DNA of 49,164 nt, from the IMG/VR virus record IMGVR_UViG_3300027908_000031, positions 1 through 49,164 of that record. One strand, given 5' to 3'. Below, piece by piece: positions 10,833 through 49,054 of the stretch. The notes under the pieces are model-generated. The model was not told where the DNA came from. It was given only the letters and a program-made list of their open reading frames with translations, and searched no databases. Numbering within the stretch: the stretch's first letter is position 1; every line of letters begins with the position of its first letter. A program made the translations under genes and the position numbers. The DNA comes from a virus.

Positions 10833-10841
10833 ATACGCGTG

Positions 10842-10866: not shown

Positions 10867-10872
10867 CCCCCT

Positions 10873-24691: not shown

Positions 24692-24694
24692 ACT
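24689..24694 (+). promoter_or_regulatory. TAAACT element for second lipoprotein gene
   Basis: GGATAAACT, exactly 6 nt before GTG 24701, overlapping the previous stop codon. A plus-strand copy with the same geometry as the minus-strand late genes. Confidence 0.65.
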
Positions 24695-27722: not shown

Positions 27723-27728
27723 AGTTTA
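27723..27728 (-). promoter_or_regulatory. TAAACT element for lysis run
   Basis: Minus strand GCAGGTAAACTC, exactly 6 nt before ATG 27716. Heads the membrane protein, lipoproteins, peptidase and endolysin series. Confidence 0.7.
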
Positions 27729-31770: not shown

Positions 31771-32511
31771 TTAGCGTTGGGGCGTAGAAGGGTCAAGAAA
31801 CAATCTAACGCTCCCGAGGGCAATGCAAAAGGCGATACCCGGAGCAGGTGCCAGAAAATCCGCCACCCCTACTAATCCTCCCGAACTATCAAAGCAACCC
31901 CCTCCGCTATTGCCGAAGTATATCGGTGCCTGCACCTCAAGGTACGGACCACCGGCATCCATAGGAAGGCTGTTGCGGTAGGCGCTAACGTAGCCTTTGG
32001 CGTAGGTCCACCCCATGCTTTTGGTATGCCCCATGAAGTGCAACTCATCCCCGATAGAGGGAGATGTGTCTGGAATTGAGGCGCTGTCGTGATCTGGGTA
32101 GGGCGGGAGAGCTGTAATGAGGGCCAAGTCGTGAAGATGATTCCACTTCACCACTGAACCTAGGTGTACCGCAGAGGGCTCTTGCTTCACCTCCCGGGAC
32201 TCCTCCTGGGTATAGTAGTGCAGCGCGGTCTTGGACCACACGGACACGGGGGGCGCCTTAGGATCGAAATCGTCGTCCTCGTCCATGTCCGCCTCGATCT
32301 GCGCTGAGACACAGTGCGCCGCGGTCAGGATTTCCGCACGGGATATCCACGTTCCCGTGCAAAAAAGCATATTAGTCTTGGGATGATACAGCGCTACCGT
32401 GGAGGACGATAGATGCCTTATAAGGCTATTGGGCTGGTAGACAAACCAGGACGATTTAGGTGGGCAGCATGCGAGCAAGAAAAGGAAGGCTAAGACAAGC
32501 CAGCGGCGCAT
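31771..32511 (-). CDS. Lipoprotein trypsin-like serine protease
   Basis: 246 residues. Signal peptide RRWLVLAFLFLLACC with lipobox, then a chymotrypsin-fold protease: TWISRAEILTAAHCVSAQ (catalytic His), WNHLHDLALITALP (catalytic Asp) and YFGNSGGGCFDSSGGLVGVA (catalytic Ser in GNSGGG). All three residues are intact. It would be exported and lipid-anchored in the infected cell. Surrounded by fibre and spike genes. TAAACT lies 6 nt before ATG. Unusual cargo for a phage; possibly acts on surface proteins or superinfecting phages. Confidence 0.8.
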   Translation of the reverse strand: MRRWLVLAFLFLLACCPPKSSWFVYQPNSLIRHLSSSTVALYHPKTNMLFCTGTWISRAEILTAAHCVSAQIEADMDEDDDFDPKAPPVSVWSKTALHYYTQEESREVKQEPSAVHLGSVVKWNHLHDLALITALPPYPDHDSASIPDTSPSIGDELHFMGHTKSMGWTYAKGYVSAYRNSLPMDAGGPYLEVQAPIYFGNSGGGCFDSSGGLVGVADFLAPAPGIAFCIALGSVRLFLDPSTPQR

Positions 32512-32517: not shown

Positions 32518-32523
32518 AGTTTA
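32518..32523 (-). promoter_or_regulatory. TAAACT element for lipoprotein protease
   Basis: Minus strand CTAGTAAACTC, exactly 6 nt before ATG 32511, in the 12-bp gap after the spike gene stop. Confidence 0.7.
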
Positions 32524-35204: not shown

Positions 35205-35210
35205 AGTTTA
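35205..35210 (-). promoter_or_regulatory. TAAACT element for tail spike gene
   Basis: Minus strand ACGGGTAAACTC, exactly 6 nt before ATG 35198; the spacer CGCCAC has no ribosome-site character. Confidence 0.7.
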
Positions 35211-35869: not shown

Positions 35870-36298
35870 CTAAGTCTCGGTAACGGCTAGAGTCCCTGCC
35901 GTGAACGTGGGCACCTGACCTGAAGCCGTAATTGCCGCGGGCGTAACAACATCCCCGTAATAGAGCAGGTTACCGCTCGTAAGGGCATCAAACAAACCCA
36001 CGCCCACGATGTTCGCCGACGAAGAGACAGCGCCCGAAGCCGTGAACATGGAAATGGTTCCCGCGTTCGCCACGCCGTTGTTCGTAACGGTCCATTTCGT
36101 TGTGTCCGCCGTCTCCACCGCGAGACGTGTATAGCCCCCACCAGTGGCTTCCGTACCACCCGAGTACGACCCGCCCGAGCCCGTGGGCGCGGTCGTGAAT
36201 AGGGCAACGTATACGTTCGCTAAACTTACGGCCGCTGCACTATTGAAGAGCTGGGCTAGCAGAGCATTCGCAAGATGTGCTGATTTACCGGAAGCCAT
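35870..36298 (-). CDS. Virion-associated protein of the KSxxLANALL family
   Basis: 142 residues. SGKSAHLANALLAQLFNSAA, NVYVALFTTAPTGSGGSYSG, TEATGGGYTRLAVE and GLFDALTSGNLLYYGDV are highly characteristic of a widespread phage structural protein family of unknown function (usually annotated as a tail fibre or head-decoration protein). TAATG overlap upstream. Confidence 0.7.
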   Translation of the reverse strand: MASGKSAHLANALLAQLFNSAAAVSLANVYVALFTTAPTGSGGSYSGGTEATGGGYTRLAVETADTTKWTVTNNGVANAGTISMFTASGAVSSSANIVGVGLFDALTSGNLLYYGDVVTPAAITASGQVPTFTAGTLAVTET

Positions 36299-36582
36299 TA
36301 CTTGTAAGCCCTCGTCTTCGCGCCAGAGGCAACGCTGTAGCCCTCCTCGGTCTCGTCCTCTGCATCGGGCTTGCGACCCTGCCAGTGGGGGGCCTTAGTC
36401 CTACTTGAGAAAGCATGGTCCGTCTTACCCGCGCGCACGGCGTCTTGCCGCTCTTCCACTGACACACGCCGCGGCATGCCAGCATTGGGGGAACCCAATA
36501 GCCCCGCCGTGACTGCCTCTTGCAGTTCCTGCATGTTCTTGAACGAAGCCGGGGAGCCTTGCAAACCGTTTTTTCTTGCCAT
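36298..36582 (-). CDS. Small charged hypothetical protein after capsid gene
   Basis: 94 residues, charged and likely disordered (KNGLQGSPASFKNMQELQEA, then KPDAEDETEEGYS). Has both AGAGGA and TAAACT before the ATG. Unknown. Confidence 0.55.
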   Translation of the reverse strand: MARKNGLQGSPASFKNMQELQEAVTAGLLGSPNAGMPRRVSVEERQDAVRAGKTDHAFSSRTKAPHWQGRKPDAEDETEEGYSVASGAKTRAYK

Positions 36583-36591
36583 GATTCCTCT

Positions 36592-36597
36592 AGTTTA
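36592..36597 (-). promoter_or_regulatory. TAAACT element after capsid terminator
   Basis: Minus strand CATGTAAACT, 9 nt before ATG 36582, immediately downstream of the terminator hairpin. Arrangement terminator then promoter separates capsid transcription from the genes below. Confidence 0.65.
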
Positions 36598-36601
36598 CAT
36601 G

Positions 36602-36637
36602 AAAAAGGCCCGATACGATATCTCGAACCGGGCCTTT
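36602..36637 (-). terminator. Rho-independent terminator after major capsid gene
   Basis: Stem AAAGGCCCG / CGGGCCTTT (36604-36612 with 36629-36637), 16-nt loop, followed on the minus strand by a short T-run. Lies about 55 nt after the capsid stop. The clearest intrinsic terminator in the window. Confidence 0.85.
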
Positions 36638-36690
36638 ACTTGTTTCCTTTCGGAGCAACCCGCTATAAGTGTTGCTCCATCGAGCGGGGG

Positions 36691-37743
36691 TTATCCATTC
36701 GTGCCGTCGCAGAGCACCATCGAAAGCGGGTAGCGAACACTGAGTCCGCCCCAACGCATGTGACAGGGAATACGGAAACTCAGGTTGATAATCTGGGGAG
36801 CGAACTGTTCGAACTCTTGCGAGATGTTCATCGCAAGTGCACGTGGATCTTTCTTGTACATCCAGATACGACCGAGCGAGCCAGCGCCAGCAACGGACGA
36901 AGAAGAAGACGTATTCAGACGCGGCCAAAACTCGATGTTCTTGAGCCAGGGGCTAGACTTAAGGATATACTGAAGAAGCGTGTCATCCGTGAAGGTAACC
37001 GAGCGCTGGGTAGTATTAAGAACCGTCCAAGCATCGGTGTAGAGAACCATCGTGTCAGGTTCCCAAATGCCTTGCGTCGCCGAAACGATACCCGCCTGCA
37101 TGGCATTGACATCTCGAAGGACGTCTTGTGCCGTAATTGCAGGATTAAAAACGGCAGTAGAGCCAACGTAGGTAACCCACTGCGAGCCTGAAGCCAGCGT
37201 CGGGATATCTACGTCCGTGCTGAGGCCTTTCAGCCCGGCAAGCTGAGCGGAAAGCCCGCCACCAAGGTTTAGGTTGCCCGAGACGCCGTCCTCGAGAAGG
37301 GTCTCAAGGTAGTAACGAGCCGCATCCGCACGCTTCTCTTCCAGCGGAATACCGCTCATCGCGGCTGAGCGCATATCCTGAATCGTGTACTGATAGGACG
37401 CACCCATGCTACGGAACACGCCAGGGAACTCTTGTCCCTTGACATCCGCGTTCGGCATGTCGTCCGAGTACGAATCGATGTACCCAGCCCCACCCGCGGG
37501 CGAGCCCAGCTTATCAAACTGACGCCAAACGAAGGCGTCGGCACCAGGGTTGAACCGGTTATCAACCGGGAACAACTTACGAGCCTTGAGCTCGGGGTAC
37601 TCGATATCGTACGTTTGCGTAATGATATCGGTAAGTTGTCGAAGAAACATCGCCGTAGTGCTTGCGTCCCAGCGCATGCCAGGAAGCGAAAACTGACGGT
37701 TCAGAACGTCGGGGGTAAAGATGCTGTCGAGTCTGGTTTTCAT
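36691..37743 (-). CDS. Major capsid protein (DUF2184-like, HK97 fold)
   Basis: 350 residues. RQLTDIITQTYDIEYPELKA, KLFPVDNRFNPGADAFVWRQ, then MGASYQYTIQDMRSAAMSGI and EKRADAARYYLETLLEDGVS belong to the DUF2184 capsid family. C-terminal RIPCHMRWGGLSVRYPLSMV is the conserved end. Builds the icosahedral shell. Flanked by the cement protein upstream and a strong terminator downstream, as expected for the most expressed gene. Confidence 0.88.
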   Translation of the reverse strand: MKTRLDSIFTPDVLNRQFSLPGMRWDASTTAMFLRQLTDIITQTYDIEYPELKARKLFPVDNRFNPGADAFVWRQFDKLGSPAGGAGYIDSYSDDMPNADVKGQEFPGVFRSMGASYQYTIQDMRSAAMSGIPLEEKRADAARYYLETLLEDGVSGNLNLGGGLSAQLAGLKGLSTDVDIPTLASGSQWVTYVGSTAVFNPAITAQDVLRDVNAMQAGIVSATQGIWEPDTMVLYTDAWTVLNTTQRSVTFTDDTLLQYILKSSPWLKNIEFWPRLNTSSSSSVAGAGSLGRIWMYKKDPRALAMNISQEFEQFAPQIINLSFRIPCHMRWGGLSVRYPLSMVLCDGTNG

Positions 37744-37745
37744 GA

Positions 37746-38324
37746 TTAAGCCGAGCTTCCCGGCAAATTAATTTCCAAAAGCGCGATATTCCCACTGGTC
37801 GTGCGTGCGGGGGGTTTGAGGCGCATCCCACCGGGGACGGGAAGGATTTCCGAACCTCCCGTATCGGACGCTGTGTTCGCCGTGAACTTGCCGTTGTTAG
37901 TTCCCGTCGATGCTGTCGAGGACGAGTAGATGTTCAGCCCAACGTTAGTGCCAACGGGCTGAGCCGTGGTCGAGGACCACTCCACGAAGACCTTGCCACG
38001 CTTCATGACCGGGACCATTTCGCCGATCTGGTATTGCTGGGGTGTTCCCGTGTAGGAGAACCCCGCATCCGCGGGCGCTCGGGCCGTCTTCAGCACTGCA
38101 ACGCCCAAAACCTTGTTAGGCGGCGTCGTCGTGCTTGAGGACGTTTGCGAAACCTGGTTACAGCTCTTGCCGTCCGCCGACAACTGAACCGCGCGACCCG
38201 GGTTCACAACAGCCGAAGCAACGAAGCTCTCGATGCTGTAGTCTTCCAAGTCACCAATTTGACCTGGACTCGCCTCTGCAGGCGAAAGGTTATACGTTGT
38301 CTGACCTTCCGAAGGAAAACTCAT
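37746..38324 (-). CDS. Structural cement / decoration protein
   Basis: 192 residues. EGQTTYNLSPAEASPGQIGD, then VNPGRAVQLSADGKSCNQVS and KVLGVAVLKTARAPADAGFS, GEMVPVMKRGKVFVEWS follow the phage cement-protein pattern (DUF2190/gp24-like) that stabilises the capsid. ATG 38324 overlaps the scaffold stop (ATGA) with AAGAAGG upstream, preferred over TTG 38330. Confidence 0.78.
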   Translation of the reverse strand: MSFPSEGQTTYNLSPAEASPGQIGDLEDYSIESFVASAVVNPGRAVQLSADGKSCNQVSQTSSSTTTPPNKVLGVAVLKTARAPADAGFSYTGTPQQYQIGEMVPVMKRGKVFVEWSSTTAQPVGTNVGLNIYSSSTASTGTNNGKFTANTASDTGGSEILPVPGGMRLKPPARTTSGNIALLEINLPGSSA

Positions 38325-38785
38325 TTCCAAGCCTTCTTGTTACGTTCAAGCATTCGAATCTGCGCATCTTCACAATCGTTTCGCTCTTCCGTCGGGACGG
38401 CAGCTGCCGCACCCGGCTGCACCGTTGCCAAGCCAGCGGCGGGCATTGCAAGCGCCAATTCAAAGGCAGCCTTGATACCGTCGTCACTAAGCCCGTCCGC
38501 GCGGAAGGTCGAGGCCTTCGCCTGGATGGTTGCAACCATCACTTCGCGGTCCGTGCCTTTGACGGCCTTGCCCGTCGCCTGCATCGCCTTCTCGCGAATG
38601 TCCAGGCTCGCAGCCACGGCCGCGTCCAGACGCTTCGGATCCGCTTGCGCGGTCAGCGTGGCGACCTGGGCCTTGAGGGCCTCGTTCTCGCCTTTAGTTT
38701 TCTCGTGCGCCGCTTTGAGGTCAGCCACTTCCTTGGCGTCTTGACGCAAGGTCGTGATTTCCTTCTGAAGAGATTCCAAGTCCAT
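38321..38785 (-). CDS. Nested scaffold protein from internal start
   Basis: 154 residues in the same frame as the protease fusion, beginning MDLESLQKEITTLRQDAKEV at the exact junction between protease domain and coiled-coil scaffold. A perfect GGTAAACTC lies 7 nt before this ATG. Nested scaffolds within protease genes are known in other phages (lambda C/Nu3). Here the internal product appears to have its own promoter. Confidence 0.65.
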   Translation of the reverse strand: MDLESLQKEITTLRQDAKEVADLKAAHEKTKGENEALKAQVATLTAQADPKRLDAAVAASLDIREKAMQATGKAVKGTDREVMVATIQAKASTFRADGLSDDGIKAAFELALAMPAAGLATVQPGAAAAVPTEERNDCEDAQIRMLERNKKAWK

Positions 38786-39400
38786 TACGCTGAGTTTACC
38801 GTTAGGCGTACGGGAGCCGGCATCGGTGTAGACATCGGGGATAAGTTGGTATGTCGTCCCGTCCAACCGAAGCCCGACATCTCGCCCCGCACGGCCGAAT
38901 CCGGCGCAGCCTAAAGCCGCGTGGTTATACCGGGGGTTCAATTGCTTGTGGGTGTACTCCTCCCCGTCGAAATTCCCTTTTTCTTCTTTGAGGTCGACCT
39001 CGTAGCCAAGGCTGATCTCCCTCAGGGCTCCGGTTTCAATCTTCGCGATGGTCGCGGCATCGTTGATCACCAGCGTCGCAGCGATCTTGTCCCCATCGCG
39101 CCGTACGTCGCTGCCAACGTGTCCCACAGCCAACGTGCGGTGGTTTTGGGTGTTGACGACAGCTTGGTGCCCTTCGGTGACAGGGATGTCTGCAATCGTC
39201 TTCAGCGACGCATCCTCGAAGACCACCTCGGGGGTGCGGAGTTCCTTCCGCGTCGACCCGTCGGAGTTCTGGTAGGTGAAGACACCCGTGCGGCTCAGGT
39301 AGGCGGGGATGCGCAAAGCACCACTGCCAGTGCGCTCAAACTTGTCTAGCTTGCTGAAATCCCAGCGGAAAGATAGCGCGCCGCTTGCTTCTGTTGCCAC
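38321..39400 (-). CDS. Prohead protease-scaffold fusion (DUF2213-like)
   Basis: 359 residues. N-terminal half (ALRIPAYLSRTGVFTYQNSD, TPEVVFEDASLKTIADIPVT, EGHQAVVNTQNHRTLAVGHV, ALREISLGYEVDL) is the DUF2213 protease-like domain with candidate His/Ser in EGHQ and REISLGY. From residue about 206 it becomes a helical coiled-coil scaffold (DLESLQKEITTLRQDAKEVA onward). GTG start is set by TAAACT exactly 6 nt upstream. An internal start makes the scaffold alone. Confidence 0.82.
   Translation of the reverse strand: MATEASGALSFRWDFSKLDKFERTGSGALRIPAYLSRTGVFTYQNSDGSTRKELRTPEVVFEDASLKTIADIPVTEGHQAVVNTQNHRTLAVGHVGSDVRRDGDKIAATLVINDAATIAKIETGALREISLGYEVDLKEEKGNFDGEEYTHKQLNPRYNHAALGCAGFGRAGRDVGLRLDGTTYQLIPDVYTDAGSRTPNGKLSVMDLESLQKEITTLRQDAKEVADLKAAHEKTKGENEALKAQVATLTAQADPKRLDAAVAASLDIREKAMQATGKAVKGTDREVMVATIQAKASTFRADGLSDDGIKAAFELALAMPAAGLATVQPGAAAAVPTEERNDCEDAQIRMLERNKKAWK
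38793..38798 (-). promoter_or_regulatory. Internal TAAACT element for nested scaffold
   Basis: Minus strand AACGGTAAACTC inside the protease-scaffold gene, 7 nt before in-frame ATG 38785. Coding constraint does not demand this 9-mer, and the position matches the domain boundary. Confidence 0.65.
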
Positions 39401-39406
39401 GGGGGG

Positions 39407-39412
39407 AGTTTA
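39407..39412 (-). promoter_or_regulatory. TAAACT element for protease-scaffold gene
   Basis: Minus strand CTCGTAAACTC, followed by CCCCC and GTG 39400; the box ends exactly 6 nt before GTG. Same C-rich spacer and GTG start as the small terminase gene, and no ribosome site. Confidence 0.7.
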
Positions 39413-39636
39413 CGAGCGTGTCTGAGTGTCCGTGCCTGACCCCAAAAACTTAGTATTACCTAGATGGGGGGTTGCGCTTCTATGAACTGTAGTGCTATAT
39501 ATAGAAGACGCTAACTTTCTTATTTTTTTCAGTCACAGTCACTAATAATAATATATACTTAGGTGTGACTAAGACACTTTGAATACAATAGCCTACACGA
39601 AAAATATATGTAAAACAATTACATGTAAGGTGATAT
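39413..39636. other. AT-rich intergenic region with palindromes
   Basis: 224 nt between the divergent capsid operon and the CoiA-like gene, visibly richer in A/T than its surroundings. Holds palindrome CTATATATAG (39495-39504), inverted repeat AGTCACA / TGTGACT (39531-39537, 39564-39570) enclosing a -10-like TATACT (39554-39559), and TTACATGTAA just before the gene. Looks like a regulatory or origin-type region. No ORF of note seen. Confidence 0.5.
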
Positions 39637-40353
39637 ATGCAATTCGCGAACGATTTAAAAGGGGAAAGAATTCAAGCCACGAGTGGCACTTACGCACACT
39701 GTCCCACATGCAAAGGGCCCGTTTTGTCAAAATGTGGTAGTATAAATGTACACCATTGGGCACACCAAAGTAGACTGGAATGTGACCCTTGGTCAGAGCC
39801 TGAGAGCCCATGGCACCGAAGCTGGAAGGACGCCGTTCCGGAGGATTGGCGGGAGGTATCCATGGGACCGCACCGCGCCGACATACGCACGCCAGGGGGG
39901 CTGGTCGTAGAGATACAGCACTCTGGTATCTCTTCGGAAGATGTTGCAGCTAGGGAGGCGTTCTACGGCAACATGGTGTGGCTATTGGACGGTCGGAATT
40001 TCGTGCTAAAGCAAAGAAGATTTGGCCCGATATGTGGGCAATTCGCTATAGCCCGTGCGCTCACCAACGGACGCGCAAGCCAGGATGTTCTTAACAAGCT
40101 GTACGAAGACCAAAAGAATCTATTGATAGTGGAAGACCCACACTGGTCTTTTGGCACGAACCGCCGCACGTTCCAGGTAAGTACGAAGCCTATTGCTTTC
40201 GACTTGGGGGACTTTTTGGTGGTGTGTGACGGTCTTCGTCTGTGGACCAAGGGCCGTAGTCCCCGTCTGTATCTTCAAGACCCTACGAAGGTGACGACGG
40301 AGGCTTTCACCTCATGGCTTATGACGGCTGGCGTATCTTCTCCGCCAACGTGA
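39637..40353 (+). CDS. CoiA-like competence/nuclease family protein
   Basis: 238 residues. Zinc-ribbon-like start (AHCPTCKGPVLSKCG), then VHHWAHQSRLECDPWSEPES PWHRSWK, and the nuclease core EVSMGPHRADIRTPGGLVVE with IQHSGISSEDVAAREAFYGN MVWLLDG, matching CoiA proteins (PD-(D/E)XK-like; His/Asp and E-x-Q motif). Ribosome site AAGGTG before ATG. It stands alone on the plus strand after an AT-rich gap and converges on the primase (35-nt overlap), which suggests later acquisition. Confidence 0.78.
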   Translation: MQFANDLKGERIQATSGTYAHCPTCKGPVLSKCGSINVHHWAHQSRLECDPWSEPESPWHRSWKDAVPEDWREVSMGPHRADIRTPGGLVVEIQHSGISSEDVAAREAFYGNMVWLLDGRNFVLKQRRFGPICGQFAIARALTNGRASQDVLNKLYEDQKNLLIVEDPHWSFGTNRRTFQVSTKPIAFDLGDFLVVCDGLRLWTKGRSPRLYLQDPTKVTTEAFTSWLMTAGVSSPPT

Positions 40354-42571
40354 GTCCTGTGCCCTGAACCGAGTACTTGTCTGGTACAATCCAAGGTTTC
40401 CTGGCGCTTGTTCGTTTCCCCCTAACGCACCCAAGTTTTTCAAGAAGCACGGTAACTCTAAGCACGTCCACTCTGGTAGTCCTGTAGGTATCTGGCTGAA
40501 TAGACCTAACAATTTCGCTGGGTGTAACGTCCTTCTTGCCTAGAAGGTACTTCTCTACCTTGTCGGTCCAAGGGTCATCAAGAGCCGTGTCACTTTCTTC
40601 GCGGTAGGCATCTACGGCTTCCGTGACAGCAGCTGGTTCTTGCAGTCCGCTCTCGACCCAAAGGCGACACCCCTCAAGCGCCCAATTCAGGATGCCGCTG
40701 AGTTCAGCCTGCAACTTCTCCTTGAGTGCCTTGTCCTGTTTTTCTTTGGGAATGCTGACCTTACAGGGGATGAGCTTGATGCGCGTCCATATGGCAGTGT
40801 CCGTGCCTTGAACTACGGGCTTATCGTTCGCGCACACCCAGAACTTGTGCGTTGGGGCAAAGTCCCAGAAATTCTCGCGCATGAAACGAGCCGTTATGAT
40901 GTCACCCCCCGTTAGCTGCTTAACGGTTTTTTCCGCCCAAGTCTTGCCCTTCTCTGCTTCTTGACATACCGCCAACCTAGCGCCAAAGAGTTTGGCCATG
41001 CCGGCGGGGTGTTCCTCCTCCGAGACCAAGAGCTTAGATGGAGCAGTCGTAGCGAACTCCCCTAAAAGGGACATGAGCAGGTCAGCGAATACGCTTTTGC
41101 CGTTGTCGCCGCTTCCCCAAAGGAAGAACAGGCACTTTTCCCGAACGGAGCCAGTAAGGGAGTACCCAACGCTTCGCTGGATATAGTTTAGCATTTCAGG
41201 GTCGCCGCTGAACATGGTGTCCAGGAAAGACGTCCACACGGGACACTGCGCCTCAGGGTCGTAGACCGCCTCTGTGGACTGCGTAAATAGGTTCGTCTTG
41301 TCGTGGTCGTGTGGTTTTCCCGTTCGCAGGTCAATAGTAACTTCAGGGGTGCTGAGTAACCAAGGATTCGTGTTGAAATCTATGGGTTTAGCGGATACGT
41401 ACTTGCGAAACAATCTACTCATTTCCGTGCGATGCTTGCCGCTTTGGCTGGTATTTGCCCATTTCAGAATAGCGAGTTTTTTGGCGCTGGCTTCTATTTC
41501 CTGCTCCTCTTCTTTGCTTAGGTCTTGCTTATGCGCCTTTGCTCTCAGGGCTTCGGCTAGCCGATCCTTGTCAATCTTAATCTCATCCGCTTCTTTGGCG
41601 ATGTCGTAGACCACCTGTTCAGTAAGCCCTACGACCAGACAGTCCGGAGTCTTCTCCCACTTAGTGCCGTTCCAGCAGAGCCACTCTTTCCAATCTGGTA
41701 CGTATTTGACATCTTCGCCGTGCGCCCGTTGGAACCTTCGAGCGTTGCCCGTGTCCGTTAGGTCAAAGCGAACCTCCTCAGATTCTTTTGGGAGCGCACG
41801 CGCCTTCTGAGTAAAAGAATCCCACCATGCGGGCGCGCAACCCCTGGGGAGGTCGCTGCGTTCGGCGCCCGCTAGCTTGTGGAATAGTTCGTCCTCGCTC
41901 CACGGGGGAAGGCATCGTGCGTTATAGTTCGCCATAAAGGCGTCGCACACGCTGTCGGGCAATTCGTACGTGCACACCAGCTTACAAGCAACGTTCCACA
42001 GCGCTAGAGACCCACCCTGTCCTTCAATGGCAGCGGGGGCGCTTGCGACGTAGTCGGACGCTAACTTTAGCCGGTACGAGAGTTCAGCCTCGCCCAGTGG
42101 GGGGCGTGTGCTCGGCGCCCTTTCGACCCGCTCATCCGAACGAAGAATCGCCGCAAGCCACCCTGGCAAAGGTGCGACGGGGAGGTCTTGTATGACCGTA
42201 TACCCGTTCCCATCGCCCGGCGCTACGACGAACCCGCCCTCGCCCCGGATGTCAACACCGTCGCCAAGTTTGCTGGCACTGTTGCGTATGTCGGCATCTC
42301 CGTGGACAAAATAGAGATGGAAGCCACCGGATTTGGTTTTGACCGTAAACGTCTCAGGTACGACCTGCCCAGTAGCCAGTTTTTCAAACGAGCCGAGTCC
42401 ATCGTGCCCATTCTTTATGTCTAAGTCCACGACAACAATACCGGAACGATGTCCAGTAAGGATGCCTACGTTGTCGTCCCATCCGTACGGTACCGTGTCC
42501 TCCCCTATACCTACTTCCTTGTATGTCCTAGCAGGAATCTTGCCACGAAGCGGGATGCGTGCATAATTCAA
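40319..42571 (-). CDS. Primase-polymerase / SF3 helicase replication protein (D5-like)
   Basis: About 750 residues. N-terminal primase-polymerase domain: VGILTGHRSGIVVVDLDIKN (catalytic D-x-D), TVKTKSGGFHLYF (S-x-H) and DIRGEGGFVVAPG. Then a linker and D5-type domain, and a superfamily 3 helicase with Walker A FLWGSGDNGKSVFADL, Walker B-like RLAVCQEAEKG and sensor KFWVCANDKPVV. Primes and unwinds DNA at the origin. TTG 42571 has GCAGGAGA 8 nt upstream; a GTG at 42589 is the alternative. TAGACT lies upstream. Confidence 0.88.
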   Translation of the reverse strand: MNYARIPLRGKIPARTYKEVGIGEDTVPYGWDDNVGILTGHRSGIVVVDLDIKNGHDGLGSFEKLATGQVVPETFTVKTKSGGFHLYFVHGDADIRNSASKLGDGVDIRGEGGFVVAPGDGNGYTVIQDLPVAPLPGWLAAILRSDERVERAPSTRPPLGEAELSYRLKLASDYVASAPAAIEGQGGSLALWNVACKLVCTYELPDSVCDAFMANYNARCLPPWSEDELFHKLAGAERSDLPRGCAPAWWDSFTQKARALPKESEEVRFDLTDTGNARRFQRAHGEDVKYVPDWKEWLCWNGTKWEKTPDCLVVGLTEQVVYDIAKEADEIKIDKDRLAEALRAKAHKQDLSKEEEQEIEASAKKLAILKWANTSQSGKHRTEMSRLFRKYVSAKPIDFNTNPWLLSTPEVTIDLRTGKPHDHDKTNLFTQSTEAVYDPEAQCPVWTSFLDTMFSGDPEMLNYIQRSVGYSLTGSVREKCLFFLWGSGDNGKSVFADLLMSLLGEFATTAPSKLLVSEEEHPAGMAKLFGARLAVCQEAEKGKTWAEKTVKQLTGGDIITARFMRENFWDFAPTHKFWVCANDKPVVQGTDTAIWTRIKLIPCKVSIPKEKQDKALKEKLQAELSGILNWALEGCRLWVESGLQEPAAVTEAVDAYREESDTALDDPWTDKVEKYLLGKKDVTPSEIVRSIQPDTYRTTRVDVLRVTVLLEKLGCVRGKRTSARKPWIVPDKYSVQGTGLTLAEKIRQPS

Positions 42572-42591
42572 GGTAGTAGTCTCCTGCACCT

Positions 42592-42597
42592 AGTCTA
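42592..42597 (-). promoter_or_regulatory. TAGACT variant element for primase gene
   Basis: Minus strand CTTGTAGACT. About 7 nt downstream begins AGGAGA, followed by TTG 42571, so the predicted transcript would carry just the ribosome site. Diverges from the copy at 42651. Confidence 0.5.
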
Positions 42598-42650
42598 CAA
42601 GAATTCTGGCTTTCATTCCGGGCACCGAGTCGATTTATGGGTTTTGTCTG

Positions 42651-42656
42651 TAGACT
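42651..42656 (+). promoter_or_regulatory. TAGACT variant element for endonuclease VII gene
   Basis: CTGTAGACT, exactly 6 nt before ATG 42663; spacer GTTGGC has no ribosome-site character. Same geometry as the TAAACT series with one substitution. Confidence 0.6.
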
Positions 42657-42662
42657 GTTGGC

Positions 42663-43184
42663 ATGCGTTCGGAGAGAAAGTGCACCGTCGAGGGTTGCGG
42701 GAGGAGGCACCACGCCAAGGGCTGGTGTCAGAAGCACCACTACCATATGGTGCCAGGTCAGAAAGAGAAACAAGCAATACGCGGACAGGGCTACTACCGG
42801 CGTCCTGGTGTGAAACAGAGGCTACAAGCCAGAGGACGCACGCTAGAGCACAAGGCAAAGTGCAGGGAACGAACGACTCTTTTTTCTGCCGAACTGGTAG
42901 AGAGGTGTAGGTCGTTTCAGAGGGGTCGTTGTGATATCTGTCAAGTTGTTTTGCTTTTAGGGGGTAAAAAACCGGATTCTGAATGCGCAGACCATTGCCA
43001 TAGGCATAGAGTGCCTAGAGGTTTGTTGTGTATGTGTTGCAACGTTGCCCTTGGCATATACGAAAACCACCAAAGACGTAGAGGGGTTACTATCAAGGCT
43101 TACGAGTTCTATCTCACATACCCGCCTGTGCGGAGGATGAACAATCTTCCAGCTTTTGCACATTTTTTGAAAGCCTCGGCGTGA
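42663..43184 (+). CDS. Recombination endonuclease VII-like protein
   Basis: 173 residues. N-terminal zinc motif CTVEGCGRRHHAKGWCQKHH typical of phage HNH-associated fingers, then CDICQVV and the catalytic DHCHRHRVPRGLLCMCCNVA with LGIYENH. Endonuclease VII resolves branched DNA or acts as a homing nuclease. Starts the plus-strand replication run. Overlaps the next gene by 4 nt. Confidence 0.85.
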   Translation: MRSERKCTVEGCGRRHHAKGWCQKHHYHMVPGQKEKQAIRGQGYYRRPGVKQRLQARGRTLEHKAKCRERTTLFSAELVERCRSFQRGRCDICQVVLLLGGKKPDSECADHCHRHRVPRGLLCMCCNVALGIYENHQRRRGVTIKAYEFYLTYPPVRRMNNLPAFAHFLKASA

Positions 43185-44521
43185 GAGTTTCAGCCTCTCA
43201 AATATCCTCGTTCCGAGCGTGTCGACGCCAGTGGTCTTTTCGTTCTCGTGACAAGCTTAGTACGCCTGCGGGCGCAGGTGCTCAGCTTGGATCGGATGTT
43301 CATGCGGAACTTGAGCGCTACCTGAAAGGGGGGAGTATCAACTATAGCATCGAAGCCGGCAACATAGCTGCAGAAGGCTTGGAGTACTTGCCCATGCCTC
43401 TATCAAAGCCCTACACCGTGGAAGGGTCTTTCGAACTGGAGGCCCCCGATGACATTCTTTACACGGGGCGCATAGACTTAGAGATACCAGGAGATCCGCC
43501 AACAATTCTAGACCATAAGACGTCCAAGAATTTGAGATTTGTCAAGTCTCCTGAGGAGTTGAGAGGTGACCCTCAGGCCATTATCTACGGTGCTCATGCG
43601 TTGACTCGCTACGAATCCTCTGCCGTGGATTTAGTGTGGGTGTATTACGACACTGGAAAGTCTAAGCGTTCTAAGCGTGTGCACTTGCGCATGCTGAAAG
43701 ACGAGGTGATTACGGGATTTGAAAAAGTACACTTGACAGCATTGACCATGCAGGATATTGTAGCGTCAGGAGTACCAACGCTAGAGCTTCCTCCCTCACC
43801 AGAAGCCTGTGAGATGTTCGGAGGGTGCCCATTTCGTGCCGATTGTAACCTATCCCCCGCCCAGAGGAGAAAATCCATCATGACCCAGAGTGCGAATGAT
43901 TTCCTATCGCGTCTCAAGTCCCAAGTAACCGGTACCGCGGCCGCTCCGACGATGCCCGAACCTCCGTCCATGCCTAAGGCGCCTGAATTGCCGAAGTGGG
44001 CGACGGATGCCGTGGACCCCCGACAGCTAACCCGAACCCTTCAGCCTATTAACCCGCCCGCGCCCATCGCCGCGCCCGCGCCCGCGCCCGTGCCCCTTGA
44101 CCTCTCCGTGCCAGTGTCCTTCGCTGCTACCATGACAGCGTCGGCTAATGTCTCGCCAGAGAAACCCAAGCGCGGGCGACCCAAGAAGGAAGCCGATACT
44201 ATCCCCGCGCCTTCCCTGCCCGAGAACGCAGCGCAGACAACCCAAGCGTTCCGTTTCGACACGGTATACGTGGACTGTATGCCATTGAACGAGAACGTAA
44301 GCAGCGTCGCGTCCTATCTTCCTGTTATCCAACGGCTTATCGAGGAGGAATACCAGGTAGAGGATTGGCGCGCGGTGCCTTACGTGTCCGGCGCGGCGTT
44401 CTGTAAGGCGCTTCTGGCTATCGCCGACCGTAATATCGTGGTGGAGTCCGGCACGGCGGAGGGTGCGGCTTGTCTTACAACGCTCCTAGCAAATGCGGGG
44501 CGCGTGGTTAGGGGGATTTGA
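43181..44521 (+). CDS. PD-(D/E)XK nuclease (RecB/Cas4-like) with AT-hook
   Basis: 446 residues. SASQISSFRACRRQWSFRSR is the N-terminal Cys/arginine motif of PDDEXK_1 nucleases; GSDVHAELERYL gives the His, YTGRIDLEIPGDPPTILDHK carries the D and D-x-K catalytic pair, QAIIYGAHAL the QxxxY motif, and GGCPFRADC the distal Cys cluster of Cas4/AddB-type iron-sulfur nucleases. A Pro/Ala linker follows, with an AT-hook KPKRGRPKK, then a separate C-terminal domain. GTG start overlaps the previous stop. Confidence 0.82.
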   Translation: MRVSASQISSFRACRRQWSFRSRDKLSTPAGAGAQLGSDVHAELERYLKGGSINYSIEAGNIAAEGLEYLPMPLSKPYTVEGSFELEAPDDILYTGRIDLEIPGDPPTILDHKTSKNLRFVKSPEELRGDPQAIIYGAHALTRYESSAVDLVWVYYDTGKSKRSKRVHLRMLKDEVITGFEKVHLTALTMQDIVASGVPTLELPPSPEACEMFGGCPFRADCNLSPAQRRKSIMTQSANDFLSRLKSQVTGTAAAPTMPEPPSMPKAPELPKWATDAVDPRQLTRTLQPINPPAPIAAPAPAPVPLDLSVPVSFAATMTASANVSPEKPKRGRPKKEADTIPAPSLPENAAQTTQAFRFDTVYVDCMPLNENVSSVASYLPVIQRLIEEEYQVEDWRAVPYVSGAAFCKALLAIADRNIVVESGTAEGAACLTTLLANAGRVVRGI

Positions 44522-45384
44522 TGATCACTATCCGGGATGTATTGAGCAAACCACTTCTGGAAGTGGCGGACCTGCGGGGCGCGGACCTGCGGGGCGCGTA
44601 CCTGCGGGGCGCGTACCTGACGGGCGCGGACCTGCGGGGCGCGGACCTGCGGGGCGCGTACCTGCGGGGTGCGAACCTAAAGGGCGCGAACCTGACGGGC
44701 GCGAACCTGCGGGGTGTGGACCTGCGGGGCGCGAACCTGACGGGCGCGGACCTGCGGGGTGCGAACCTAACGGGCGCATACCTAACGGGCGCGAACCTGC
44801 CGGGCGCGGAATTGAGGGGCGCGGAATTGGGGGGCGCGAACCTGATGGGCGTCAACCTGACGGACGTCAACCTGACGGACGTCAACCTGACGGGCGCGAA
44901 CCTGATGGGCGTCAACCTGACGGACGTCAACCTGACGGACGTCAGGTTGACGGGCGCGAACCTGATGGGCGCGAACCTGATGGGCGCGAACCTGACGGGC
45001 GCGGACCTGACGGACGCGAACCTGATGGGCGCGAACCTGACGGGCGCGGACCTGACGGACGCGGACCTGAAGGACGCGGACCTGAAGGACGCCAACCTGG
45101 AGGATGTCGTATTACCAGACGGGCAAAAACTAATTGAATACATTCAGAAGCTTCCATATGCTCTCCTTACCAAAGGAGGCAAGACACTCGAGGAGGTTGT
45201 CGCTGCGTGGGACTCTCATACCTGGGAGGGCTGCCCGATGCACGTCGCGTTCGGGGCAGGTGGAATTCAGGAAGTTCCCGAATGCTACCGCGATGCGGCC
45301 AAGACCTTCGTTGCATTATTCGACGGGAAGCACATTCCGAAGCCCGCGGACCCCGAAATCAAGCCGGGCGATGCCCCAGCGTAG
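44521..45384 (+). CDS. Pentapeptide repeat protein with C-terminal domain
   Basis: 287 residues. About 35 tandem A-(D/N/Y)-L-x-x repeats form a predicted right-handed quadrilateral beta-helix, the fold of DNA-mimic proteins such as Qnr/MfpA. A 90-residue C-terminal domain follows (KLPYALLTKGGKTLEEVVAA, then WEGCPMHVAFGAG, CYRDAAKTFVALFDGKHIP) of a type seen after phage pentapeptide repeats. The DNA repeats are nearly identical 15-mers, so the array expanded recently. ATG 44521 overlaps the previous stop (TGATG). Function not established. Confidence 0.85.
   Translation: MITIRDVLSKPLLEVADLRGADLRGAYLRGAYLTGADLRGADLRGAYLRGANLKGANLTGANLRGVDLRGANLTGADLRGANLTGAYLTGANLPGAELRGAELGGANLMGVNLTDVNLTDVNLTGANLMGVNLTDVNLTDVRLTGANLMGANLMGANLTGADLTDANLMGANLTGADLTDADLKDADLKDANLEDVVLPDGQKLIEYIQKLPYALLTKGGKTLEEVVAAWDSHTWEGCPMHVAFGAGGIQEVPECYRDAAKTFVALFDGKHIPKPADPEIKPGDAPA
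44560..45105. repeat. 15-bp tandem DNA repeats encoding the pentapeptides
   Basis: GCGGACCTGCGGGGC-like units repeated about 35 times with drift from CTGCGGGGC (5' part) to CTGACGGAC and CTGATGGGC (3' part). Lack of stop codons produces long open frames on both strands that should not be read as genes. Confidence 0.9.
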
Positions 45385-47002
45385 ACTCTATCGAACACCA
45401 GAACACCATCGCATCTTCTCGCTTCCTACTAAACAACCCGTAGCCGATCTCTCCCCCTTGGACGACATTCTACGCCGTCCGGGGGGGACCATGTCGTTAC
45501 GTCCGGTGCAGCGGGAATCCTTGTACGAGCTCGGAACGTCTGGCGGGTTGTTCGGGCCATTAAGCGTAGGTACCGGGAAGACTTTGCTTTCCCTACTGGC
45601 GCCGGTCGTCGTCCAGTCCGCGCGTCCGATTCTTTTGATACCCGCAGCTCTTATCGAGAAGACCGAAAGGGACCGCAGGGAACTGTCTAAGCACTGGCTA
45701 AGCCCTAATACCTTGCGGGTAATGTCCTACGAGAGGCTCTCGCAGGTACAGAGCGAGAATACACTTACTTACTATAGACCCGACCTTATAATTTTAGACG
45801 AGGCACATCGTGTTAAGAATCGGCGCGCTGGCGTGACCCGACGTATCTTGAGGTACATGCACGCCAATCCCGAGACGAAGTGCGTTGCTATATCTGGTAC
45901 GATAATTTCCAAGTCCATCAAAGATTTCGCGCACATCATACGCTGGTGTCTTAAGGACAAGGCGCCCGTTCCTGAGACGGAAGACGAGGTCCAGTTGTGG
46001 GCGGATGCTTTGGACAGTGACGTGAACTTCCTAAATCGTGTGGACTCGTCCATCCTGGCGCCCACGATCGAGGAAGCGCGCAAGGTCTTCGCGGACCGTG
46101 TGCTGTCGACCCCCGGCGTGGTCTATTCCCGAGACGGCGGGATACCGAACGCCTTGAACATTAAAGGGCACATCATCGAAGCCCCCCCGGTGACGCAAGC
46201 GAATTTCAAGGGCATTCGGGAGACTATGGTAACCCCTACGGGGTGGGCTTTCGCTGAGGCTGCGCAACTATGGCAATACTGTAGGGAACTGGCTTTGGGC
46301 TTAATCTACCGCTGGAATCCCTACCCCCCAGAAGATTGGCGCAATGCTCGGCGGGATTGGGCTTCGTTCGTTAGAGAGACTATTGCCCACAGCCACACTC
46401 TAGATACTGAGCTGCATGTTGCACAGGCCGTAGACAGGGGCGACTTGGATAGCGCCGAGCTCGTGGCGTGGCGAGCGGTGCGGGATTCCTTCAAGCCCAA
46501 CGTCGTGCCAGTGTGGTACTCCGAGAACGTGATCGAGTGGTGCGCGCGATGGTTGCAAGAGCCCGGGATCTGCTGGGTGGAGCACACACTCTTTGCGCAA
46601 AGATTGTCCGAACGCACGGGGGTTCCTTATTACGGAGGGGAGGGCCTGGATGCGCAAGGTAAGTTCATAGAGGACAATCCCGGAGGACCTACCATCGCCT
46701 CCATTGATGCTAATTGCACGGGTAGGAATCTTCAGTACAAGTGGTCTCGGAATCTCATCGTCTCACCGTTGTCGTCCGCCAAGAAGTGTGAGCAGCTGCT
46801 AGGTAGGACACATCGCACGGGACAGCCGCAGGACGAGGTTACGTGCGATGTCCTATTTGCTTGTAGAGAGAATTTCGAGAGTTGGGAAAAAGCGCTAACT
46901 TTGGCGCGTGCGACTCAGGACCTTACGGGAACACCAAAGCTGCTCTTGGCGACCTTAGACATCCCCTCCCAGGAAGGGCTTACGGGCGCGGTGTGGAAAT
47001 AA
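45371..47002 (+). CDS. SNF2/DEAD-like superfamily 2 helicase
   Basis: 543 residues. Walker A GPLSVGTGKTLLSLLAP, motif Ia PILLIPAAL, motif II LIILDEAHRVKNRRAG (DEAH), motif III CVAISGTIIS and motif VI CEQLLGRTHRTGQPQDEVTC, the SNF2-type arrangement (LLGR-HR-GQ). An ATP-driven DNA translocase for replication or recombination. ATG 45371 (14-nt overlap with the pentapeptide gene) is chosen; the frame opening from 45134 is shadow sequence. Confidence 0.85.
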   Translation: MPQRRLYRTPEHHRIFSLPTKQPVADLSPLDDILRRPGGTMSLRPVQRESLYELGTSGGLFGPLSVGTGKTLLSLLAPVVVQSARPILLIPAALIEKTERDRRELSKHWLSPNTLRVMSYERLSQVQSENTLTYYRPDLIILDEAHRVKNRRAGVTRRILRYMHANPETKCVAISGTIISKSIKDFAHIIRWCLKDKAPVPETEDEVQLWADALDSDVNFLNRVDSSILAPTIEEARKVFADRVLSTPGVVYSRDGGIPNALNIKGHIIEAPPVTQANFKGIRETMVTPTGWAFAEAAQLWQYCRELALGLIYRWNPYPPEDWRNARRDWASFVRETIAHSHTLDTELHVAQAVDRGDLDSAELVAWRAVRDSFKPNVVPVWYSENVIEWCARWLQEPGICWVEHTLFAQRLSERTGVPYYGGEGLDAQGKFIEDNPGGPTIASIDANCTGRNLQYKWSRNLIVSPLSSAKKCEQLLGRTHRTGQPQDEVTCDVLFACRENFESWEKALTLARATQDLTGTPKLLLATLDIPSQEGLTGAVWK

Positions 47003-47021
47003 TTAGAAATCGTATGTCGTG

Positions 47022-47052
47022 TTGAGAGAAAAGCACCCCTACGCAGTATACT
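47022..47052 (+). promoter_or_regulatory. Sigma-70-like promoter before structured leader
   Basis: -35 TTGAGA (47022-47027, 5/6 match), 19-nt spacer, -10 TATACT (47047-47052, 5/6 match). Transcription would start near 47059-47060, immediately before the large hairpin, giving an mRNA that begins with it. Looks host-type and differs from the TAAACT series, suggesting early expression. Confidence 0.6.
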
Positions 47053-47060
47053 CCCCATAG

Positions 47061-47152
47061 CAAGTAGGAAGGCGGCGGCGGAGCGACGGGGCGACCGGTG
47101 CCCTCCTCACCGACGAAACACAGCTCCCGTTCCGCCGTTGCCTTCCTACTTG
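47061..47152 (+). ncRNA. Large 5' leader hairpin with anti-Shine-Dalgarno loop
   Basis: Arms 47061-47082 and 47131-47152 pair over 22 positions (two G-U wobbles), continued after a 3-nt bulge by ACGGG/CCCGT. The enclosed region has a second hairpin CGGTG-CCCTCCT-CACCG (47096-47112) whose loop is complementary to the GAGGA ribosome site at 47168-47172. Suggests translational control or mRNA stabilisation of the downstream gene. A weak terminator (TTTC after the stem) is an alternative. Confidence 0.65.
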
Positions 47153-47178
47153 TTTCTAACCTAGAACGAGGACTAACA

Positions 47179-47652
47179 ATGGGTATCTTTGAAGGCTTGA
47201 AACATGCTAAGACGAAGACGAGCGACCGCGGCGTTTGGTTGAACCCTGGCGTATACCGTGTCAAGGTTGCCAAGTGCATCTGGAAGCAGACCAGATCCAA
47301 AGGAGAGGCTTTCATTATGGAGATGGACATTCTAAAGTCGACGTACAACCCACAACAGCACGTTGTGGACGGGCGAAAGATTGCGGAGGCGCCGAACGAA
47401 GCAGGCACCCGAGCAACCTGGTATCAGTCGTGCCGTGATAGGGACGTTGGCTTTGGAGCCCTGAAGGGTTTTGCGGCGGACATTACCGGAGCGAAAGTGG
47501 AAGACCCCGTCTTCGTTTCGGCTGTTGAGGGTCTGCTTGAACAGTTTCTTGAGGGGGCAATTGACGGCGTGGAGTTGAATGTTGAAGTATTGAAGGTGAA
47601 AACTAAGGCGGGTACCGACTTTTCTTTGCACAGGTTCAAGAAGGCTGCATAG
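47179..47652 (+). CDS. DUF669-like protein (probable ssDNA-binding/recombination accessory)
   Basis: 157 residues. MGIFEGLKHAKTKTSDRGVW, LNPGVYRVKVAKCIWKQTRS and KGEAFIMEMDILKSTYNP resemble the DUF669 group of phage proteins that accompany nucleases and helicases and are thought to bind single-stranded DNA (OB-like beta barrel). Start ATG 47179 has GAGGA 6 nt upstream; the longer frame to 47098 is not used. Controlled by the hairpin leader. Family call moderate. Confidence 0.65.
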   Translation: MGIFEGLKHAKTKTSDRGVWLNPGVYRVKVAKCIWKQTRSKGEAFIMEMDILKSTYNPQQHVVDGRKIAEAPNEAGTRATWYQSCRDRDVGFGALKGFAADITGAKVEDPVFVSAVEGLLEQFLEGAIDGVELNVEVLKVKTKAGTDFSLHRFKKAA

Positions 47653-47661
47653 GTCTTTCTT

Positions 47662-47730
47662 AGCCCTCGGCGTCATGCCGGCTAGGTGTAGGTGGGTTCA
47701 AGTCCCAAACGCCTAGGGCTCTTTTTCTTT
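47662..47730 (+). ncRNA. tRNA-like three-way junction followed by T-run
   Basis: Outer stem AGCCCT/AGGGCT (47662-47667, 47715-47720) encloses hairpin CGGC-GTCAT-GCCG and an arm AGGTGT/ACGCCT topped by GGG-TTCAAGT-CCC, whose loop matches the tRNA T-loop consensus. An anticodon arm is missing, so it is not a working tRNA. CTTTTTCTTT follows, making a plausible terminator. Could be a tRNA relic, a tRNA-like regulatory element or a fancy terminator. Confidence 0.55.
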
Positions 47731-47740
47731 AGGAGGAAAC

Positions 47741-48013
47741 ATGTACCACGTTACTGCGTCGGTATCGGGCAAGGCGCCACCCATCAAGACCTTCGTGGTT
47801 TTGGATAGTGCTATCGAGTTCGCGCGCAAGTGCGCGGGGCAGGGATGGCAAGTGGTCGCCGTGGTGGACCATGACGGTTACGATACCCATATCCGAGGTT
47901 TCGGGTTAAGCGGTATCTTCCGCTGGGCGTTGCCGTGCAAGTCTTGCGACGAAGAGGGTTGCGAACGTTGCCAGGAATGGGGCGCGGTAGTGGACAACAC
48001 TAAGCAGGTGTAG
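47741..48013 (+). CDS. Small zinc-binding hypothetical protein
   Basis: 90 residues. Alpha/beta first half (FVVLDSAIEFARKCAGQGWQ) and CKSCDEEGCERCQEWG with four Cys near the end. Ideal AGGAGG ribosome site. Unknown function. Confidence 0.65.
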   Translation: MYHVTASVSGKAPPIKTFVVLDSAIEFARKCAGQGWQVVAVVDHDGYDTHIRGFGLSGIFRWALPCKSCDEEGCERCQEWGAVVDNTKQV

Positions 48014-48020
48014 GAGTGAA

Positions 48021-48110
48021 ATGACCGTCACATCACCACTGGCGAGTGGAATAGCGAGACCAAGCCTAGCAGCCTATAAATGCCCCTCAACTCTACGGAA
48101 GCAAGGGTGA
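48021..48110 (+). CDS. Possible micro-ORF, 29 residues
   Basis: ATG with AGGAG 4 nt upstream, encoding MTVTSPLASGIARPSLAAYK and a short basic tail. No family; plausible from ribosome site and tight spacing only. Confidence 0.35.
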   Translation: MTVTSPLASGIARPSLAAYKCPSTLRKQG

Positions 48111-48116
48111 CAAGTG

Positions 48117-48263
48117 ATGCGAGATTCTTGCCTTCTACTCTCGTTCTTTTGCTTGGTCGCCTGCGCTCTTGCGGGACTTGCAAATTTATACGGATGGTCT
48201 ATACTCTGTTTTGCCATTGGCCTTAGCTGGTACGGGCTGGGCACGGCTACTGACAACAAATAA
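48117..48263 (+). CDS. Small two-span membrane protein
   Basis: 48 residues: LLLSFFCLVACALAGLANLY then SILCFAIGLSWYGLGTA, two hydrophobic segments with a short loop. Follows the micro-ORF closely and ends 10 nt before the next gene. Could be an early membrane-acting protein. Confidence 0.55.
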   Translation: MRDSCLLLSFFCLVACALAGLANLYGWSILCFAIGLSWYGLGTATDNK

Positions 48264-48273
48264 GGAGCATGAC

Positions 48274-48537
48274 ATGAAAAAGATTGTGGAAATTGATCCG
48301 AAGTCGGGAATGGAGTCTTTGCTGGGCGCGCGAGTCTTGCTCATGTGTATGAATTATTTCTATGTTGGCAAACTCATGGGCGTGAATCGTTCGTGCGTGT
48401 TGCTACACGATGCATCAATCGTGTATGAAACGGGTGACTGGTCCGCGGCATCGTGGAAAGATGCGCAATCGATCAAGCGCTCCGCGGTCTACGTACGGTT
48501 GGCAGCCATAGAGTCGTTCATGCCCGAGAGAGGGTGA
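48274..48537 (+). CDS. Conserved hypothetical phage protein
   Basis: 87 residues. VLLMCMNYFYVGKLMGVNRS, LHDASIVYETGDWSAASWKD AQ and a final RLAAIESF match a small phage family common near replication genes (form VFLFC--Y-Y-G-L-GV--D-V-L--A-IVYETG). Ribosome site AAGGAG before ATG. Function unknown. Confidence 0.7.
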   Translation: MKKIVEIDPKSGMESLLGARVLLMCMNYFYVGKLMGVNRSCVLLHDASIVYETGDWSAASWKDAQSIKRSAVYVRLAAIESFMPERG

Positions 48538-48545
48538 GCGCCACG

Positions 48546-48800
48546 ATGCGCAGTCGGCGCCAGATATATCTCCGGTCGCGGTCGCGGTCGGGGTCGGGGT
48601 CGCAGTCGGGGTCTTGGTCGTGGTCGCGGCCGCGGTCGTGGTCGTGGTCGTGGTCGTGGTCGGGGTCGTGGTCGGGGTCGCGGTCGTGGTCACAGTCGCG
48701 GTCGCGGTCGTGGTCTTGGTCTTGGTCTTGGTCGGGGTCGAGGGAGAGGTCGTGGTCGCGGTCGCGGGAGCGGGAGCGGTCGGGGTCTTGGTCGTTATGA
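48546..48800 (+). CDS. Ser-Arg/Ser-Trp dipeptide repeat ORF, copy 1
   Basis: 84 residues: head MRSRRQIYLRS, then about 35 Ser-X dipeptides (X is Arg, Gly, Trp or Gln) and an R-E-R-E-R-S-G terminal motif. Encoded by GGTCGN hexamers. The ATG follows GAGGGTGAG; the stop shares bases with an ATGATG restart of the next copy. Resembles eukaryotic RS domains in composition; likely nucleic acid-binding or phase-separating if expressed. No known phage family comes to mind. Confidence 0.5.
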   Translation: MRSRRQIYLRSRSRSGSGSQSGSWSWSRPRSWSWSWSWSGSWSGSRSWSQSRSRSWSWSWSWSGSRERSWSRSRERERSGSWSL

Positions 48801-49054
48801 TGCGCAGTCGGCGCCAGATATATCTCCGGTCGCAGTCGGGGTCTTGGTCGGGGTCGCAGTCGGGGTCTTGGTCGGGGTCGCGGCCGCGGTCGTGGTCGTG
48901 GTCGCGGTCGTGGTCACAGTCGGGGTCGCGGCCGCGGTCGTGGTCGGGGTCGCGGTCGTGGTCACAGTCGCGGTCGTGGTCGTGGTCGTGGTCGGGGTCG
49001 TGGTCGTGGTCGGGGTCGCGGTCGTGGGAGCGGGAGCGGTCGGGGTCGCTATGA
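48797..49054 (+). CDS. Ser-Arg/Ser-Trp dipeptide repeat ORF, copy 2
   Basis: 85 residues with the same MRSRRQIYLRS head and RERERSG ending, joined to copy 1 by an ATGATGA-type overlap (stop TGA within ATGATG). The head DNA (first about 33 bp after the ATG) is identical to copy 1, while the internal Trp/Gly/Gln pattern differs, so tandem duplication was followed by repeat-length turnover. Confidence 0.5.
   Translation: MMRSRRQIYLRSQSGSWSGSQSGSWSGSRPRSWSWSRSWSQSGSRPRSWSGSRSWSQSRSWSWSWSGSWSWSGSRSWERERSGSL

Follow-up and report, generated by a model that had tools for sequence, protein, structure and literature searches.

A head-maturation protease gene in the viral DNA analyzed here probably contains, within its own reading frame, a promoter without a –35 element that would start a leaderless mRNA for scaffold, cement, and major capsid proteins. 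The evidence is comparative and comes from DNA sequence. The DNA, hereafter called the window, comprises all 49,164 nucleotides of IMG/VR record IMGVR_UViG_3300027908_000031. On its minus strand, a 359-residue frame that opens with GTG (38321–39400) encodes a DUF2213 head-maturation protease with an in-frame scaffold-like tail (PF09979, 4.5e-35; phrog_530, 1.1e-65). The Pfam match scores 121.6 bits against a curated cut-off of 22, and cement and capsid genes adjoin, which identifies the product as a DUF2213 protease. Two same-frame proteins would be made from this gene: GTG 39400 would open the full protease-scaffold fusion, and ATG 38785 a 154-residue scaffold. Each start would have its own promoter of a single class, consisting of a –10 hexamer (TAAACT) and no –35 element, with transcription beginning at or beside the start codon to give a leaderless mRNA. 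The internal promoter would produce a separate mRNA carrying the scaffold followed by cement and major capsid protein, raising these products above the protease. We envisage that this –10-only class serves head, tail, and DNA-processing genes and has one member within the protease gene.

At the internal site, the minus strand from 38800 to 38783 reads GGTAAACTC AGCGTA ATG, with the ATG (38785–38783) in frame with the DUF2213 gene. A preliminary description of this DNA had reported a perfect box 7 nt before this ATG. Box and ATG are both present; the box, found by motif and weight-matrix scans, spans 38792–38800 (minus strand), and its spacing from the ATG is 6 nt when counted from the end of GGTAAACTC and 7 nt only from the TAAACT core (38793–38798). 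The same description predicted a 154-residue product, and translation of the nested frame (38321–38785, minus strand), which has a coiled coil at its N-terminus, gives exactly that length. Its placement of the box precisely at the end of the protease domain needs correction, as the DUF2213 match covers residues 23–176 (38873–39334, minus strand, after conversion to window coordinates) and the nested methionine, at residue 206, lies about 30 residues beyond. Weak coiled-coil matches begin at this methionine. When a weight matrix was trained on 10 starts, with the internal site excluded, the internal box was one of 9 equal-top positions among 98,296, and all 9 precede starts.

The start of the protease gene itself is boxed: TAAACT at 39407–39412 (minus strand) stands 6 nt before GTG 39400, and the longer box CGTAAACTC ends 5 nt upstream. 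Downstream of the scaffold lie genes for a structural cement protein of the E217 gp24/Pam3 gp6 type (37746–38324, minus strand; PF22758, 1.3e-19), whose ATG overlaps the scaffold stop, and for the major capsid protein (36691–37743, minus strand; PF09950, 6.3e-34). Neither of these genes has a box of its own in the window or in three relatives discussed below (records G001, G003, and G004), and an internal promoter would therefore raise scaffold, cement, and capsid together. Phage heads require far more scaffold and capsid protein than protease. The earlier proposal that the box sets scaffold dosage independently of protease is plausible, but too narrow, with cement and capsid downstream and unboxed. 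Among GenBank phages, we found no near-identical DNA for positions 36000–49164 of the window. On the other side of the protease gene, a frame at 39637–40353 encodes a protein with a CoiA N-terminal match and lies behind an AT-rich stretch.

The internal box belongs to a family whose position is far more unusual than its number. Exact GGTAAACTC occurs 6 times in the window, always on the minus strand, compared to 0.29 copies expected from shuffles, and all 8 copies of GTAAACTC are located 5–8 nt before a start codon. TAAACT as such is unremarkable in total (20 copies versus 15.2 expected); what stands out is placement, as 14 of the 20 copies lie 6–9 nt before an ATG or GTG that opens a frame of 60 residues or longer, versus 3.3% for 59 other hexamers composed of the same letters. 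All 14 boxed sites fall between 8.2 and 39.4 kb. In addition to the two in the protease gene, plus-strand boxes precede ATG 8228 (8216–8221), the small terminase GTG 10873 (10861–10866), and GTG 24701 (24689–24694). Minus-strand boxes precede ATG codons of the portal gene (10832; box 10842–10847), a baseplate wedge gene (14645; 14655–14660), a DUF3383 sheath-like gene (23516; 23525–23530), a trypsin-like protease gene (32511; 32518–32523), and a tailspike-like gene (35198; 35205–35210), as well as ATG 16059 (16066–16071), ATG 20264 (20271–20276), ATG 27716 (27723–27728), and, at a distance of 9 nt, ATG 36582 (36592–36597). The trypsin-like gene covers 31771–32511 (PF13365, 7e-15), and a protease-like gene of G003 is boxed too. 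A variant box, TAGACT, stands at 42651, 6 nt before an endonuclease VII gene, and the endonuclease VII gene of G004 is also boxed. Across phages, boxes occur at portal, terminase, sheath, baseplate, exonuclease, and endonuclease VII genes. None was found at DNA polymerase, helicase, sigma, cement, or capsid genes in the window and in those phages where these genes were found, or at the window's primase gene. Because endonuclease VII and exonuclease genes are boxed too, "late" is not a strict label for the boxed set.

Several features of the box resemble a –10 element. First, in Deinococcus, TANNNT 6–7 bp before open reading frames acts as the –10 element of leaderless genes, according to the accessible part of one report (PMC12340547); that of another (PMC3160421) describes, for Actinobacteria and Deinococcus-Thermus, TA-like signals about 12 bp upstream that mark leaderless genes. 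In the window, TANNNT ending 5–8 nt before start codons is likewise enriched over background, the pattern by which leaderless genes are recognized. Second, upstream of position –4, neither the 14 sites of the window nor the 13 sites of G003 show a column of at least 0.6 bit, and no clear –35 element is thus evident; the 8 sites of G004 have a single such column, an A at –24. Third, the portal and small terminase genes start divergently 40 bp apart (10832–10873) with two inverted TAAACT boxes between them, a spacing that leaves no room for leaders. G004 and G099 have comparable divergent boxed pairs. The preliminary description called the box a genome-wide promoter; placement at starts, the –10 position, likeness to TANNNT, the divergent pairs, and a phage sigma factor all agree with this, and we regard the box as a putative promoter.

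Could the box instead be a signal for translation, used by ribosomes that initiate at the nested ATG on the long protease mRNA without any internal transcript and without a Shine-Dalgarno (SD) sequence? It occupies the position of an SD and, as described below, substitutes for one at the same start in relatives; moreover, those window genes that lack a box mostly overlap the preceding gene or have an SD. We nevertheless consider this reading unlikely. The box fits a –10 hexamer and varies among TAAACT, TAAAAT, and TAnnCT, so that no single fixed rRNA complement accounts for it, and back-to-back boxes serve divergent starts only 40 bp apart. In addition, the TAAACT copy at 29410 is 25 nt upstream of its start with an SD-like GAGAGG in between, as a promoter followed by a leader would be. 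Three copies (29410, 31368, and 36597) have an SD lying between the box and its start. They were considered as proof of a promoter and dropped in that role, as only 29410, to which we give little weight, fits a leader plus SD; deciding between promoter and ribosome-binding site by position alone was likewise given up as indecisive.

The nested start, as distinct from its box, appears to be ancient. In the first 14 relatives, of which 13 are GenBank phages and the other an IMG/VR contig, inspection by eye found a nested ATG just past the protease domain with an SD-like stretch in 13 of the 14; the fourteenth, ctsHD2, has a nested GTG with AAAGGA. A scan of viral contigs with a three-row alignment (A2) contributed 80 further loci, whereas scans with a single protein yielded no loci for the protease and 2 for the portal. 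From 96 loci we dropped 16 near-duplicates, 6 without the anchor motif, and 2 with short tails (L004 and L053), and considered in-frame starts 5–60 codons from the anchor. Once four loci encoding a close relative of the window's sigma factor are set aside, 68 deduplicated relatives remain, among them L029 with its weak sigma match. In 64 of these 68, an SD-like signal of at least 4 nt accompanied an in-frame start past the domain. The signal was at least 5 nt in 32, 4 nt in 32, and absent in 4. The 6 loci lacking the anchor all have an SD-like signal of at least 4 nt at the boundary. As the 4-nt criterion is lax, we place weight not on the raw 64 of 68 but on the contrast with controls: per start codon, 20% (5 nt) and 44% (4 nt) of nested-region starts had an SD, whereas the corresponding values were 4.8% and 15% for starts further upstream, inside the domain, and, for frame +1, 4.6% and 13%. 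That the signal recurs in 64 of the 68 relatives indicates that the nested start is old, and comparison supports well both a nested scaffold start and the use there of the phage's own start-site box.

These results also bear on whether a nested product is needed at all. Self-processing of protease-scaffold fusions is well known from phage heads, and the protease could free the scaffold from the fusion, leaving the box and ATG incidental. We regard this as improbable, given that start signals are enriched at the nested position across relatives and that the box recurs there in several distant phages.

At the boundary start of some relatives, a box takes the place of the SD. TAnnnT stands 6–7 nt before this start, with no SD of at least 5 nt before the same codon, in the window (TAAACT), L023 and L024 (TAAAAT), L056 (TACAAT), and L068 (TACACT); L023, L056, and L068 belong to records G001, G003, and G004, respectively. 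In L015, L032, L051, and L077, four relatives that lack a close relative of the sigma factor, TAnnnT at a gap of 5–7 nt has an SD-like signal alongside. The protease's own start is also boxed in G001, G003, and G004. Each phage has its own consensus, TAAAAT in G001, CCTAnnCTGAAGC in G003, and TAnnCTGATyr in G004. In G026, a longer copy of G001 of which 20 kb were read, all 8 copies of TAAAAT lie 5–7 nt before a start codon, and gap 5 is where TAnnnT is most frequent in both G003 (11 versus a background of about 1) and G004 (9 versus about 0.5). The nested boxes are weak by the standard of their own phages, scoring 8.8 against 13–21 in G003 and 5.9 against mostly 19–23 in G004, where an alternative GTG with AAGGA lies downstream.

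A second set tested a prediction made beforehand, namely that phages with the sigma factor have a box at the nested start and those without it an SD. A DNA polymerase alignment gave 60 loci, and 36 new records were searched for DUF2213 and sigma, leaving out records already searched and the weaker end of the list. DUF2213 matches were found in 14, of which 11 were full and three (G088, G089, and G119, with 50–75 profile positions covered) were dropped. The prediction was borne out only by half. Among five sigma-positive phages, G092 (gap 5) and G113 (gap 8) have TAAACT without an SD, G087 and G097 have an SD (AAGG and AAGGA, respectively) and no box, and G116 has neither. Five of six sigma-negative loci have a 4-nt SD-like signal (L208, L209, L211, L212, and, by eye, GAGG in L210); the sixth, G099, has TAAAAT at gap 5 and no SD. 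The contig of G099 stops about 90 nt past its DNA polymerase gene, so a sigma gene could simply be missing from it. This contig (L246) also has, at 9409–13037, a repeated CGATCGGCCG ahead of TAnnnT and several ATG starts.

Over both sets, the distant clade with boxed starts comprises 10 phages, and a sigma factor resembling that of the window is encoded by most of them: the window itself, G001, G003, G004, G087, G092, G097, G113, G116, and G099. Conservation of the box at the domain boundary, the check proposed with the preliminary description, was found in part: 7 of the 10 have a box at the nested start (one of them at gap 8), 2 have an SD, and 1 has neither, and most other relatives have SD-like signals. 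The gap is 7 in the window and G001, 6 in G003 and G004, and 5 in G092 and G099, so that the box occupies every one of the three possible codon registers; the peptides encoded just ahead of the nested start differ (NGKLSV, PSKILP, AYNEA, PYTYL, ALNSG, and ELKSY). Because the register changes, the box is not a by-product of a conserved peptide. As a lone site of 9 letters, the window's GGT AAA CTC could be a coincidence that merely encodes Gly-Lys-Leu, and we judge this very improbable in view of the three registers and of the fact that TAAACT precedes just one of the window's 289 internal in-frame starts, namely the nested one. The looser TAnnnT at gap 5–7 is rare too before internal in-frame starts, with 18 of 1104, including the nested sites of the window and G004. 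In a DUF2213 tree, the four sigma phages of the first set do not group, in a region where long branches meet, and they have many other genes in common (27–52% identity). We do not claim that the switch from SD to box arose repeatedly, as the tree splits these phages but the long branches and shared genes disagree.

What might read the box? The candidate is a 252-residue sigma-70 family factor (2691–3449, plus strand), identified by domain and profile matches (PF04542, 2.1e-12; TIGR02937, 3.5e-15; phrog_351, 8.7e-22), whose gene has no box of its own. A structure predicted with modest confidence (pLDDT 68.8) has several helix groups and matches sigma factors in Foldseek (best E 4.6e-9). When the window sigma alone was searched against 10 chosen records, G001, G003, and G004 matched with E values of 1e-19 to 1e-27 and G007 matched weakly; its relatives in IMG/VR phages are 31–43% identical. 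A four-sequence profile found no further strong member in 94 records with DUF2213 relatives (15, 50, and 29), and only this negative is new, the profile having been built from its own hits. A tblastn search of 50,697 GenBank phage records found no match to the window sigma at 1e-5. Strong matches were present in 3 of the 94 first-set records, exactly those with boxed nested starts, and sigma and nested box occurred together in four of four cases including the window; in the second set this association was borne out only by half. The idea that the sigma factor strictly predicts the nested box was rejected after that second set (G087, G097, and G116 on one side and G099 on the other). Most records of relatives are fragments, in which absence of a sigma gene says little.

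We lean slightly toward the phage's own sigma as the reader of the box, with a host sigma as the fallback. In that second case, the same internal leaderless promoter would be read by the host housekeeping sigma, and the phage sigma would have another role, a possibility that we take seriously while thinking it on the doubtful side. TANNNT occurs at this distance in hosts rich in leaderless genes, where it acts like a classical –10 element, as stated in the accessible part of PMC12340547, and G116 has the sigma gene, little enrichment of a box of its own, and few boxed starts. By contrast, the 14 boxed sites of the window all lie in 8.2–39.4 kb, and none is at the polymerase, primase, helicase, or sigma genes, which would be expected to be the first targets of a host sigma.

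With phage sigma and promoter taken together, the broadest proposal, which we advance tentatively and with a little less than even confidence, is that the clade runs a –35-less leaderless regulon with its own sigma family, in which an in-gene promoter may have replaced the ancient ribosome-binding site of the nested scaffold. Known nested scaffolds achieve their excess through translation. If the promoter reading is correct, control of the scaffold-to-protease ratio has moved from translation to transcription; the same old start was apparently rewired, and relatives show both the earlier and the later evolutionary state. A phage sigma family not described before would come with a readable candidate target box, making late-gene timing of such phages testable in vitro. 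In literature searches with thin coverage of subscription papers, we found no account of DUF2213 together with a scaffold and none of a nested scaffold expressed from an internal promoter; the accessible part of one DUF2213 paper (PMC8770471) does not concern a nested scaffold promoter.

The arrangement can be compared with several known systems. In lambda C/Nu3 and Mu I/Z, an internal scaffold start is used on a shared mRNA. As in the window, the scaffold in both corresponds to the C-terminal portion of the protease gene and has an internal in-frame start; unlike theirs, the window's start has the phage's own –10-like box rather than an SD. Closer to the window, phiEt88, LBR48, and AHP42 (phrog_530) have the same domain order and a nested ATG in the same place, followed in the case of phiEt88 and LBR48 by structural and capsid genes, but the nested start of all three has an SD-like signal. 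The leaderless genes of Deinococcus-Thermus and Actinobacteria share TANNNT about 6–7 bp before the start codon, as far as the accessible parts of PMC12340547 and PMC3160421 go; the window differs in being a phage, in keeping to a fixed hexamer, and in having one copy of it within an open reading frame. T4 late promoters depend on gp55, a phage-encoded protein of the sigma family, with recognition restricted to a downstream site (accessible part of PMC2988020), which parallels the sigma-family protein and the putative downstream-only promoter without a –35 element in the window. According to the same portion of that source, the late RNA polymerase of T4 operates with no sigma-4 equivalent, whereas the window sigma has extra predicted C-terminal helices. 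Finally, the window starts, unlike T4 late promoters, appear to be leaderless.
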